The translations under genes and the position numbers were made by a program. A DNA stretch of 64,000 nucleotides from Streptomyces sp. CA-210063 (GTDB lineage: Bacteria; Actinomycetota; Actinomycetes; Streptomycetales; Streptomycetaceae), in assembly GCF_024612015.1 (NCBI RefSeq), contig NZ_CP102512.1, forward strand, positions 4,154,001-4,218,000. The letters are read 5' to 3'. The notes below the pieces were generated by a model, which saw nothing but the letters and a program-made list of their open reading frames with translations, searched no databases and was not told the DNA's origin. Shown here one piece after another: positions 39,528-44,609 of the stretch (positions are counted from its first letter, which is position 1; every line of letters begins with the position of its first letter).

Positions 39528-39716
39528 GAAGCGCTCTCCCCCGCAGGGACTCCCCAGCCCCTGTCATTGCGTAGTTGGTCGTCTACGAACTGTGAAGGGA
39601 GGGTAAAGCGCGAACAAACAAAAGTTCCAGAGCGCCACAAGAGGACATCTCGCCCCATCAGAACCAAACATCACAGAACATCGAGTGATGTGGGTCACAG
39701 GCGCAATAGGGATCGC

Positions 39717-39762
39717 CGGGGCGAGGTGGTCACCGAACAGTTCGGCGAACCACCTCGCCCCG
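39717..39762 (-). terminator. Terminator of the oxidase/decarboxylase/PixA operon
   Basis: A perfect 14-base stem (CGGGGCGAGGTGGT with ACCACCTCGCCCCG) encloses a smaller inner stem CCGAA/TTCGG, 18 bases past the PixA-type stop codon. Confidence 0.93.
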
Positions 39763-39780
39763 GCCCTCACCCGAAGACCG

Positions 39781-40290
39781 TCAGGGGTTCTCGATGGTGA
39801 TGAAGGGGTCCCACTGGAAGTACCCCTTCAATTGCCGGTGGCGGTCCAGGATCTGGAAGTAGAAGTGGTACGTGACCTTGCCGGTGCTTTTGACGGTCGC
39901 CCGCCAGTAGTGATCCTGGTAGTTCTGCGTCACGAATTCCGGCCTGCCCTCGGAGCCCTCCTTCGGTATCGGGTAGATGCCGTCGATGACCTCGATCTCG
40001 GGGGTCCTGATGAGCTGGTGGCCGGTGTCGCTGCTCACGTATTTGTACAGTAATGCCTTGTAGTCGCTGCCGAGCGAGAGCGTCGTCTCGCGCCACCTGA
40101 TGCTGTCCCCGGGTTCGGCGCGGAGGTTCAGTTCGGCGCCGGACGTGCCGACGATGTGGTCGTGGCGGGTCGTCATGTAGATGAGGTTGTGGTCGGCGTA
40201 CGTCGGCGCGTCCGGGTTCCTCGACGCGTTGGGATTCTGTTCGACGATCGTGGCCGCGTCGAACGCGATCAGTACGTTGAGATCAGCCAT
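39781..40290 (-). CDS. PixA/AidA-type inclusion-body family protein
   Basis: A protein of 169 residues similar to PixA (crystalline inclusion protein of Xenorhabdus) and AidA. The family features visible are the start LNVLIAFDAATIVEQ, GDSIRWRETTLSLGSDYKAL and the end VTYHFYFQILDRHRQLKGYF with WDPFI. The biochemical role of this family is not known; some members form intracellular crystals. It is the last gene of a three-gene operon, 31 bases after the decarboxylase, with AAAGGAACGG before its ATG. Its presence with two metabolic enzymes is unusual and unexplained. Confidence 0.87.
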   Translation of the reverse strand: MADLNVLIAFDAATIVEQNPNASRNPDAPTYADHNLIYMTTRHDHIVGTSGAELNLRAEPGDSIRWRETTLSLGSDYKALLYKYVSSDTGHQLIRTPEIEVIDGIYPIPKEGSEGRPEFVTQNYQDHYWRATVKSTGKVTYHFYFQILDRHRQLKGYFQWDPFITIENP

Positions 40291-40321
40291 TTCCCGTTCC
40301 TTTCGGGTTGTGGATACGGAT

Positions 40322-42154
40322 TCACGGCACCTTGTACGCCATCGCCCGCGGATAGTCGTGCCGGTGCAGGCGGACGCGGACCAGCAGCGGTCCGGCGTTG
40401 ATCTGGTCGGTGGGGTCGGCGAGGCGGGTCAGCAGCTCCTCCAGTTCGGAGGTGTGCGCGATACTGAGCCCGTTCGCCGGGGTCTCCTTGCCGGCGAAGA
40501 CGGCCGCGAGGCGGTCGTAGTGCCAGGGGTGGAGGACGTTGTAGAAGTCGGGGTCGTGGGAACCCCGCTCGTCGTCCGCGTAGTAGGACGGGTGCACCAG
40601 CATCTGTTCGATGCCGTAGAAGTGGCCGTTGTCCATGACGAACACCACCGACCGCAGCCCGAGCCTGGTGTGGGTGGAGATCTCCTGGCAGGTCTCCTGG
40701 AAGGCGCCGTCGCCGACGAACACCATGGGGCGGGCATGCCCGCGCTCGGGGGCGAGCGCGGCGCCGGTGGCCGCGCCGACCGACCAGCCGATGGACAGCC
40801 AGCTGACCTGCGACAGGAACCCGCCCGCGGACAGGGACAGGTTCATCGAGCCGATGAGGGAGAACGCGGCGTCGGAGACGACCGTCCAGTCCTGGCGGGT
40901 CTCCTGGCCCAGGAAGTGGTTGATCCGGTCGAACACGCCGTCGTAGGTGAGTCGTTCGGTGTGCCGGGACCGTGAGCCGCTGGTGCGGAGCGAGGCTCGG
41001 TACTGCTCCAGGTCGGCGGGGCGGTCGACGGGCGTTCCGTGGTGGGCGTGGGCGTGGGCTTCGGCGTAGTAGTCCGCGGACAGGCCCCCGGAGCCGTAGT
41101 TCTTCACCAGCGCGTCCTGGAGGGCGGGCAGGAGGTGTTCGAGCTGGACATCCGGGAAGTAGGACGTGCCGACACTGACGCCGCCGTTCGCGGCCATCAC
41201 CCAGTCCCCGCCGACGCACTGCTCGCCGCCGAGGTTCTTCGACGTGGACCAGGCGCCGAGGCCGATCCGGCAGGTGGCCCAGTCCTTGAAGATCCGGTGC
41301 ACGTCAGGGTGGCTGGCATGGCCGTTGTACACACCGTGGAACTGCGTCAGGTCCTCGTCGACGACGGCCTTGGCGCCGACGGTGGTGCAGAACGGCACCC
41401 CGGTGGCCTCCACCAGGTCGGTGAGCGGCCCGCCTAGGCGGAACCGGTCGATCTCCTCACCGGCCCACACGATCGGGCGGGGCCTGCCGTCCGGGCCGGG
41501 GTGTTCCTCGACCAGGGCGAGGATCGCGTTCACGGCGTTGTCCAGCATGAGCTGGTTGCGCGCGCTGAACGGACGCTCGCGGCGGAGGATCGGGTCGCCC
41601 GGCTCGGCGCAGGGCTCGTCCCACAGGTCCTCCATGACCTCCAGGTAGACCGGCCTGCGCTCGGTGAGGCACGCGGTGAGCGCGGCGTCGATCTGGGCGG
41701 GGGCGAGGCCCGGGTTGGAGATGACCTGCGCGTCCACGGTGACCTGCCGGTAGACGTCCAGGTTGCTCTCCGGGCGGGGGCTCATGTGCGAGGTGAGCAG
41801 GCCGACAGCGCGGTAGTTCTGCCACTGCTCGTAGGGCGGTGAGGCGTTGACGGCGACCAGCGGGACCTGCTCGACGTAGGCGCCGCCGCAGGCGTTGAGC
41901 AGGTTGAACGCGCCGACGCTGTACGTGACCGCCGCCGCGCCGACGCCGTGGACGCGGGCGTAGGCGTCGGCGGCCTGGCCCGCGCCGCCCTCGGTGGGGG
42001 TGCCGACCCACTCGATGTCGCCCTCGGCCCGCAGGGTGGTCAGGAACGGGCCGAGGTGGTTGCCGGGGACGCCGAACAGGTGGGTGATGCCCAACTCGGC
42101 CAGCCTCAGGGCGAGATAGCGGGCGACCGTGCACTCGGTGGTGATCGCGGTCAC
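40322..42154 (-). CDS. ThDP-dependent 2-oxoacid decarboxylase-like enzyme
   Basis: A 610-residue thiamine-diphosphate enzyme of the pyruvate/indolepyruvate decarboxylase superfamily. The N-terminal domain has the ThDP-activating Glu in GTPTEGGAG (Glu 55). The C-terminal domain has the Mg-ThDP motif GDGAFQE.. ending with VMDN, 25 residues later. The paired histidines used by classical pyruvate decarboxylases in the N-terminal domain seem replaced (GLLTSHMS), so it may be a different decarboxylase or a carboligase. GTG 42154 overlaps the oxidase stop by four bases and has AGGAGGAGG upstream. The likely substrate is the oxo acid made by the oxidase. Confidence 0.87.
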
Positions 42155-44193
42155 GAGCGGTCCTCCTCCTGGTCCGGGCCCGGGATCGTGACCGGCGGGG
42201 CCTGATGGACGGCGAGGGCGGCACGAACGGCGCTCTCCAGGGCGCCCTCGATCCAGGCGTGCTTGAGGGAGGTGTGCTCTCCCGCGAAGTGCACGGGGCC
42301 CTCGGGCCGGGAGGCGTCCAGGTGGAAGCTGGTCATCTGGTGCGCGGTGTAGATGGCGGCCTCGCCGAAGGCGTACGGGTCGCGGGCCCAGCTCTTGGTG
42401 GCGCCCCGGCCGGTGAAGAACACCTCGATGCGGCGGCCGTGCAGGGCCTGGAGGTTGCGCAGGGCGTAGACGTAGCGCTCCGCGTCACGCATGGAGTCCC
42501 AGCGGGCGGCGTCGTCGGACCAGGAGTACGAGGCGAGTACGACGCCGCCGGTGCTGCCCTCGACCGGGTGCGAGGGGTAGTACAGGAACCGGTTGGGGTT
42601 GTCGGTGGCGGAGCCCCCGCCGAAGGCGTGGGTGGCGGGGCGGACGGCGGGGCCGCGCAGCGGCATGGTGCTGTTGAGCTGCCGCATCTCCTCGGTGACG
42701 CCGCTTTCCTTGACGGCGGCGCCGAGCAGGACGGCGTCCGCATCGGCGAGCGTGGGGGTGCGGGCGGGCTCGGCACCCACCTCCAGGCCCAGCCGGTAGT
42801 ACTCGTAGAGGCCCGGTGCGATGCTCTCCAGTTCCTCGCGCCAGTCGTCCTCGGTGAACTCCCACCACCGGTGGCTGAACTCCAGCAGCACCTTGGTGGC
42901 CGAGTCGTAGTGGGTCTCGATGATGGCGCGGCGCTTCTTGTACGACATGGAGGGGACGATCTCCACGAAGCGCAGGGCGGAGAACGGGATGGTGACGACC
43001 GCCAGGTCCGCGGTCCACCGGAGCGGCGGGGCCTGCGGGTCGTTCTCGGCGACGGTCTGCACGGTCACGCCCCAGCCGTCGGGGCCGACGGCGGTGCCCT
43101 CGGGGTCGGCGTCGCGGCTGGGGTCGTGGTACTCGAGGCGGATCATGCGGTGGCCGAGCCGCACCTCGTCGCGCAGGCCCTCGTGGAGGGCGTGCGGCAG
43201 GCGCCAGCTGCCGCCCGGTATCTCCCAGTAGCGGACGGTGGGGTTGATGTCGCTGCGGCTCAGGAAGCTGTGGAAGAAGGAGAGGTGCAGTCGGCTGGAC
43301 ATGTTCTCCAGCGTTCCGACGGCCTCGATCGCCTCGTCGCTGAGCCCGGCGTGGTCGCGCAGGAAGCCGCCCATGGAGTAGCCGTCGAAGTCGCGGATCA
43401 CCCGGGCCCAGCCCTCGACCCACTCGTCGAACGGCTTGTTGACACGCTTGCCGTCGACGACGTCGGAGTAGTAGTCGCGCACGCTCTCCAGCGCGTCGTC
43501 GACCATCTTCACGACGGGGGCGCGGACCTCGTCGCCGGTGAGGTGGAAGCCCTCGTTGATCCGCTCGGGCCCTGCGGTGTAGTCGGCCCGCCGCACCTGG
43601 ACACGGTTGGCGCGGATCCAGGAGTTGCCGCGCTTGTCGGGTTCGCGGAAGTCGGGGCTCGCGTCGCCGTTGGTCCACGTCTGGCCGGTGAAGGACGTGT
43701 ACGTCACCGGGGGGACGGGGACGTCGGGGCCGCTGCCGGTGGAGGGGTCCACGTCCACGTTGTAGAACTGGCGGCGGCCGAGCCCGAGTTTGTCGACGAG
43801 GGCGAGGACGAGCGGGTGGAAGTCGGGCAGCCGCATGGCGCCGGCCTCCGCGTACTGGGCGGGGTCCTCGAAGGGCTGGTGGTGCTTGGTGGCGCGGAAG
43901 GTCTTGATGCGTCCGCCGACGCGGCTGGCGTTGGCCTCGATGATGGTGACGTCGTGGCCGGCGTCCTTGAGCAGGCGGCCGGCGACGAGGCCGGTGATGC
44001 CGGCGCCGATGACGAGGATCTTCTTACGCGGGTGGTGGGTGGGGCCCAGGCGGCCCGTGTCGATCAGGGTGTGCAGATAGCCGAGTTTGAGGTCCTTGTC
44101 GTCCGGCCCGACGAGGAGGAGTTCGCGGGCGAGCTTGATACACGTCTGCCAGCGCGCACGGGTGGCGGAGTTGCCCCGTGGAGTGTCCGTCAT
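42151..44193 (-). CDS. L-amino acid oxidase, L-glutamate-oxidase-like
   Basis: A 680-residue flavoprotein of the amine oxidase superfamily. It matches the Streptomyces L-glutamate oxidase along its length: ARELLLVGP and [11 protein letters not shown] at the start, FAD motif [12 protein letters not shown] (61-72), [71 protein letters not shown] and a C-terminal [17 protein letters not shown]. Arg 301 aligns, from memory, with Arg305 that binds the substrate side-chain carboxylate in L-glutamate oxidase. No signal peptide is seen. The reaction gives oxo acid, ammonia and hydrogen peroxide. It is the first gene of the operon. Specificity for glutamate is likely but not proven. Confidence 0.88.
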
Positions 44194-44609
44194 GGTTGGG
44201 AATCGTAGAGACGCAGAAACGATTTCTTGTCTCCCCCGGCAAGCAAAGTCCTAAAAACACCGACCGCCTTCCTTGACGGAATTTCGACTTGCTCGAATTT
44301 CCTTGCGGGGACCGGAGTTTCGCCAGGGACGCAAGGGAGTGAGGGAGAAGCCGAGGCAAAAAACTCGCGCGCGGAATGCGGAAATCCTGTGGAATCGATG
44401 ACGGCGGTCCCACCCGACCTTTTCCACGATGGCCTTGTCCTGCCGATCGGACAGCGGCGTCACGCCAACGGAATCGGCGATTTCCGCGTTGCGGTCGGGG
44501 TGAGTCCTGGGAATTGGAGCGGAGTTCGAATTCCGGCTCGGTCAGGGCAGTCGGCCGGTGAGCGCCTCCAGGGCTTCACCACGATCGGATGCCATGGGCG
44601 CGGACCAGG
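44194..44609. other. Promoter region of the oxidase operon
   Basis: No gene is evident in this 416-base region, though it contains several open frames of poor composition. GAATTTC is directly repeated at a spacing of 16 bases around 44279-44301, upstream of the oxidase gene. This region must hold the operon promoter, but I cannot pick -35/-10 elements with confidence. Confidence 0.45.

Follow-up and report, generated by a model that had tools for sequence, protein, structure and literature searches.

An amino acid oxidase, a ThDP-dependent decarboxylase-like enzyme and a PixA-family protein form a conserved operon in Streptomyces: a possible route from glutamate to succinic semialdehyde

What is served by placing an L-glutamate-oxidase-type enzyme, a thiamine diphosphate (ThDP)-dependent enzyme and a PixA-type protein in one transcription unit? 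Such an operon is found on the minus strand of the window analysed here, a stretch of 64,000 nucleotides from Streptomyces sp. CA-210063 (contig NZ_CP102512.1, positions 4,154,001 to 4,218,000). It comprises a flavin amine oxidase of the L-glutamate oxidase (LGOX) type (42151..44193, 680 aa, ATG start; open reading frame (ORF) call, Pfam and PDB match), a ThDP-dependent 2-oxo acid decarboxylase of the PDC/IPDC/KDC family (40322..42154, 610 aa, GTG start; ORF call, Pfam and alignment) and a PixA/AidA-family protein (PF12306; 39781..40290, 169 aa, ATG start; ORF call and Pfam). A first-pass annotation, made from the sequence alone, had described three close-packed minus-strand genes and had read the first two as successive steps of a pathway. 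The packing is as described, the oxidase and ThDP genes overlapping by 4 bases (GTGA) and the ThDP stop lying 31 bases from the pixA start. The operon is a real, conserved and apparently undescribed combination of known families. With a probability of about 0.5, it is read here as a route from glutamate through 2-oxoglutarate to succinic semialdehyde, to which PixA is a separate addition.

The gene set is conserved in Streptomyces. Among 295 Streptomyces genomes, a strong match to the ThDP enzyme occurs in 20, 12 of them at 85% identity or above (clade 1, which includes the window) and eight at 60-62% (clade 2). An LGOX gene lies directly upstream on the same strand in all 20, in one of them (G142) as just a remnant, so that the first-pass annotation, which had made its pathway depend on shared synteny beyond this strain, is borne out on that point. 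Operon-type LGOX (at least 64% identity) was detected in 19 genomes, every one a ThDP carrier, in a search that scored four candidates per genome; 79 other genomes hold solely an LGOX type of 40-54% identity, and G142 alone of these has the ThDP gene. Co-occurrence is not due to chance, since both genes are found in 19 genomes, LGOX alone in none, ThDP with an LGOX remnant in one and neither in 275 (Fisher 5e-29). A scan of named genomes yielded 39 loci, all from Streptomyces; S. coeruleorubidus is one carrier. With four duplicates taken out, the set comprises 46 clade-1 loci (window included) and the divergent locus L078. Fifty of the 52 loci for which LGOX was called preserve the 4-base overlap, and the remaining two (L066, L067) have broken frames. 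As the outer flanking genes are common to few neighbouring loci only, the conserved thing is the unit itself. No description of the oxidase-ThDP-PixA combination was found in the open-access full-text literature searched, in agreement with the first-pass annotation, which knew of no such system.

The oxidase matches Streptomyces L-glutamate oxidase over its length, as had been claimed: it contains the amine oxidase domain PF01593 (E 2e-48) and aligns to the solved enzyme 7e0c over residues 17-666 (E 1e-283). PDB entries 2e1m, 7e0c and 8jpw presumably all represent the X-119-6 enzyme, and titles in reference lists agree. The window oxidase resembles them in full-length homology and in the Arg305 position, but belongs to another clade, being 61-68% identical to clade-2 oxidases. 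Window Arg301 corresponds to Arg305 of solved Streptomyces LGOX in an alignment made via the clade-2 oxidase of genome G175 (locus L036), which is almost identical to the LGOX of 7e0c/8jpw and overlaps its own ThDP gene by 4 bases. With four remnants and four duplicate loci set aside, all 49 full-length oxidases that were aligned, the window's among them, carry Arg at this position; in the PDB-search alignment, chain 7e0c carries Glu here, and 8jpw and the window carry Arg. According to the title of work by Utsumi from 2012, Arg305 of L-glutamate oxidase is reportedly crucial for substrate recognition. Glutamate is taken as the substrate because of sequence clade and the Arg305 position, and conversion of L-glutamate to 2-oxoglutarate is likely. 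No export signal was seen when the N-terminus of the window oxidase was inspected by eye.

The second product had been called a 2-oxoacid decarboxylase-like enzyme with an altered His pair, and this description holds. All three TPP_enzyme domains (N, M and C) are present, and alignment to PDC-type enzymes shows Glu55, His123, Asp482, Asn509 and Glu516 retained, with the H113-H114 pair of PDC replaced by Ser122-His123 and Asp27 of PDC by Asn32. Glu55 (E50 of ZmPDC, cofactor-activating), His123 and Glu516 (E473, carbanion-protonating) are invariant across 34 aligned members. The closest solved relatives are pyruvate, indolepyruvate and branched-chain 2-oxo acid decarboxylases (5npu ANC27, 1zpd, 6vgs, 1ovm), which have in common with the window enzyme the three TPP domains and the equivalents of Glu50, His114, GDG..N and Glu473; the window enzyme differs from them in the Asn and Ser replacements and in enlarged loops near 108-118 and 519-535. 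At E 1e-30, 26 solved relatives are listed, and by name every one except ANC27, whose name is uninformative, is a 2-oxo acid decarboxylase. A protein search with the ThDP enzyme is silent on distant kin, since the best 120 of 972 matches were all at least 81% identical. In PMC3534367, the HH motif is treated as a mark of PDC/IPDC-type ThDP decarboxylases; here every row of clades 1 and 2 has Ser-His, and L078 has Thr-His. Table 1 of PMC13327070 lists the E473/H114 pair for the aldehyde-releasing enzymes PDC and IPDC, and V/I plus Q at these two places in POX, AHAS, glyoxylate carboligase and 2-hydroxy-3-oxoacid synthase. Because Glu516 and His123 match the PDC/IPDC pair, the window enzyme is expected to decarboxylate its substrate to an aldehyde. 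Arg127, four residues from His123, is also invariant and might be a ligand of a distal carboxylate.

The altered residues raise the question of whether the carbanion is protonated at all or joined to an aldehyde or a second oxo acid, yielding an acyloin-type product. Replacement of Asp27 and of the first His in the window would fit such a carboligase, and a 2001 title by Sergienko and Jordan reportedly ties D28 and E477 of yeast PDC to carboligase side products. In addition, two oxidases flank the ThDP gene in two clade-2 loci (L033, L035). However, Asp at PDC position 27/28 is present in these loci and in L034, and further in L038, L039 and L078, and the window enzyme keeps E516 and H123 where the carboligases of Table 1 have V/I and Q. 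Moreover, according to PMC13327070, it is E477Q, not the native Glu, that shifts yeast PDC to carboligation. Carboligation as the main activity is thus quite improbable, and decarboxylation remains the preferred reading.

Loci in which the oxidase is of another kind bear on whether the two enzymes act one after the other. At L078:3837-7788 (Streptomyces sp. SID3343), the LGOX slot before the ThDP gene is occupied by a different amine oxidase, nearest in the PDB to the L-amino acid oxidase 2jae, and the closest LGOX matches in this genome are two at 36%. Two distant actinobacteria (G399 and G391) have a 34-36% ThDP relative immediately behind a flavin amine oxidase gene (L146:6789-10609 and L147:4546-7960); for the L146 oxidase, as for that of L078, the nearest PDB entries are general L-amino acid oxidases. 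Within a phylum-wide sample of 396 genomes, ThDP relatives besides that of the window were met only in G399, G391 and G095, the last without an adjoining oxidase, and a search of additional family members (120 genomes for L146, 1 for L147) did not recover their ThDP genes. The oxidase-ThDP pairing is therefore recurrent but rare. Since an amino acid oxidase followed by a ThDP decarboxylase recurs with different oxidases, consecutive steps are favoured. In clade 2, a DyP-type peroxidase gene lies directly or closely upstream of LGOX in five of the eight loci (L032, L033, L034, L035, L039), a second amine oxidase gene lies downstream in L033 and L035, and in the annotated plasmid loci L153 and L154 the genes for DyP, oxidase and TPP protein follow one another. 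It is likely that the peroxidase uses the H2O2 of the oxidase.

The same material bears on another explanation, namely that the ThDP enzyme acts on some other 2-oxo acid, such as one that is aromatic or branched, and that the oxidase serves mainly as a source of ammonia and H2O2 or as a glutamate drain, the two being co-regulated rather than consecutive. The non-LGOX amine oxidases beside L078, L146 and L147 would fit this view, as would loci in which the oxidase is deleted in frame and the ThDP gene left intact. The best NCBIfam matches of the window enzyme are indolepyruvate/phenylpyruvate decarboxylases, though far under cut-off (TIGR03393 and TIGR03394, 167.5/946 and 168.5/554.5 bits). Nevertheless, the operon-type LGOX clade is linked one-to-one with the ThDP gene, and the pairing outlives a swap of the oxidase, which fits consecutive steps best. 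This alternative is considered unlikely, while deserving some weight.

With glutamate as the starting point, the operon would encode a cytosolic, O2-driven amino-acid-to-aldehyde route whose conserved module is the oxidase-decarboxylase pair. The oxidase would probably turn L-glutamate into 2-oxoglutarate, ammonia and H2O2, and the PDC-type ThDP enzyme, with its changed proton relay, would then decarboxylate the oxo acid. Were 2-oxoglutarate the substrate, for which only the neighbouring gene speaks, the products expected from a decarboxylase-type active site would be succinic semialdehyde and CO2, a step that appears plausible from the residues retained. In the Ehrlich pathway, a transaminase is followed by a 2-oxo acid decarboxylase. 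The predicted route likewise leads from amino acid to oxo acid to aldehyde, but would start with an O2-dependent oxidase that yields H2O2 and ammonia.

Several observations weigh against this route. The PDC Asp27 position is Asn in 45 of 46 clade-1 rows (L066 is unreadable) and the first His of the pair is Ser in all 46, so catalysis may differ from that of PDC. The AlphaFold model of the ThDP enzyme (pLDDT 65.5, active-site loops below 50) is uninformative on the substrate, and no further gene is conserved beside the clade-1 unit, which leaves no pointer to a user of the aldehyde. Other amino acid oxidases adjoin the more distant ThDP relatives, so the substrate may not be 2-oxoglutarate. Besides, 2-oxoglutarate is already abundant, and making it from glutamate with O2 is unexplained. 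Furthermore, the oxidase deletions require four changes on the ThDP tree, starred branches forcing four (L049 and L076 are sisters); this count used the 39 intact rows as a group, and without that group the tree tool gave one change. Since the oxidase was lost in four places of the tree, the oxidase-ThDP pair is not obligatory. Finally, G247 (L141:6440-7303) has neither enzyme at the chromosomal site that the operon occupies in the window, and the oxidase promoter and first codons are followed there by PixA. A short leader ORF in this locus ends just within the pixA start.

The deletions themselves are informative. Of the 46 clade-1 loci, five combine an intact ThDP gene with an oxidase that is missing or reduced to a remnant: in L049, L050, L073 and L076 it is cut to its first residues and its end, and in L048 what is left of it, about 11 residues, is joined to ThDP. 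One clade-1 locus beyond these five, L067, has a broken oxidase frame. In all five deletions the frame from the oxidase ATG into ThDP is kept without a stop; under random frames, the chance of four or five deletions all being in frame would be 0.012 or 0.004. By a simple method, ThDP dN/dS was 0.22-0.41 in six pairs with an oxidase-deleted genome, compared with 0.31-0.43 in six others, and PixA dN/dS between L073 and L057 was 1.09, as expected of a broken copy. These loci are read as erosion with downstream expression kept, ThDP and PixA being worth keeping without an adjacent oxidase. That the ThDP gene outlasts the oxidase could be explained if its substrate also came from general metabolism.

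Compensation by a second oxidase was considered. A second LGOX, 50-52% identical and encoded elsewhere, is present in all five oxidase-deleted genomes and in 11 of 39 clade-1 genomes with an intact oxidase (2/11 where four candidates per genome were scored, and 9/28), which gives Fisher 0.004, or 0.011 with the sister pair L049/L076 counted once; G706, with a second LGOX and a broken adjacent oxidase frame, was set aside. Tat-like N-termini (SRRxF) were read in four of the five (L079, L081, L082, L083; L080 unread) and in 7 of the 11 others of this type (L118, L119, L120, L122, L123, L124, L126), and in L121, L125, L127 and L128 no Tat motif was read, either because the reading-frame anchor failed or because none showed. 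The type (about 51%; L079-L083, L118-L128) never adjoins ThDP in the sample. Compensation is not relied on, as the enzyme is probably extracellular and lineage may confound the count.

The third gene encodes a clear PixA protein (PF12306, 163 bits against a gathering cut-off of 21), with solved relatives 4pib and 4lzk. Two of its 169 residues are Met, and its pI is calculated as 5.6. It resembles the inclusion-body family of Xenorhabdus PixA and Burkholderia Bnr1/AidA in that PF12306 extends over its whole length. According to PMC9060813, PixA/AidA proteins are stationary-phase inclusion-body proteins, and DNA mimicry has been proposed for one Burkholderia member. Plasmid-borne PixA relatives are proteobacterial; those of Burkholderia and Rhizobium (one locus each) adjoin other genes, whereas the window PixA is tied to the enzyme operon, and no oxidase or ThDP neighbours were present at the two of 36 plasmid PixA records inspected. 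Apart from the window's own, no PixA was found in a phylum-wide sample of 296 genomes. Among the 295 Streptomyces genomes there are 12 carriers, that is, 11 of the 12 clade-1 genomes, all with PixA at this operon, versus one of the 283 others, G247, which is a deletion derivative.

Is PixA then part of the pathway? L024 and L048 lack it, L070 and L073 have a shortened copy (4/46 clade-1 loci), and none of the eight clade-2 loci has it. Together with G247, which keeps promoter, start codon and PixA only, these losses would suit an accessory set with separable outputs, in which PixA, as a stationary-phase-type protein, and the ThDP enzyme are independent and linked by common transcription only. 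On the other hand, confinement of PixA to this operon in 11 of 12 carriers, the twelfth being derivative, is too tight for chance linkage, and we consider this explanation rather improbable. PixA is instead proposed to be a clade-specific addition that shares the operon promoter and is under selection for its own function. The pathway idea of the first-pass annotation survives in part: synteny, the 61-68% identity of the oxidase to the clade of solved LGOX and the Glu and second His of the decarboxylase speak for it, but the tight three-part set does not stand, since each part is lost separately (oxidase, PixA, both enzymes in G247, and clade 2 without PixA).

Streptomyces L-glutamate oxidase has long been used as a biosensor enzyme, and its structures have been solved. 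No native partner of it was found described in the open-access literature searched. In our sample, every member of the clade, including the near-identical homologue of the solved LGOX, directly precedes a ThDP gene, which offers a concrete hypothesis for the purpose of the oxidase. Tentatively, and with more doubt than for the route itself, the whole may be viewed as an O2-driven glutamate shunt in Streptomyces: a two-enzyme route to succinic semialdehyde by-passing GABA and 2-oxoglutarate dehydrogenase, with a swappable slot that takes glutamate oxidase or amino acid oxidases of other kinds, a DyP peroxidase as an optional consumer of the H2O2, and PixA taken over from a family that is known best from proteobacteria. 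The operon also supplies a gene context in Streptomyces for the puzzling PixA family, and natural deletions that keep ThDP, ThDP and PixA, or PixA alone are material for separating the roles of the three genes.

At the 3' end of the operon, the first-pass annotation had placed a strong terminator. A simple scan requiring a T-run did not call one, because a T-run is absent; folding reveals a strong GC-rich hairpin directly 3' of pixA (39716..39763, minus strand; -63.9 kcal/mol, z -8.6), which is a probable terminator. At the 5' end, upstream alignment reveals a conserved promoter-proximal element (44194..44260, minus strand) that consists of TTTtaGGACTTT, a GAAAYCGTTTC dyad and CTACGAT, and ends 8 bases before the oxidase ATG. 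A sigma-70 consensus scan found no promoter before this ATG. Of 55 upstream rows, 39 contain exact CGTTTC and 45 contain TACGAT; eight of the 55 are clade-2 rows without the conserved block. Deletion derivatives L048, L049, L073, L076 and L141 all retain the block, and L050 retains it with CGTTCC. The block suggests that the transcript is nearly leaderless; this would account for retention of the first codons and frame of the oxidase. The dyad is a possible repressor operator.

Beyond the oxidase-linked loci, in two inspected records out of 87, ThDP relatives (32-34%) on rhizobial plasmids adjoin MBL-fold and sugar-isomerase-like genes, and an MBL-fold gene likewise lies next to the ThDP relative of Streptomyces G095 (loci L149, L150 and L148 cover rhizobia and G095).

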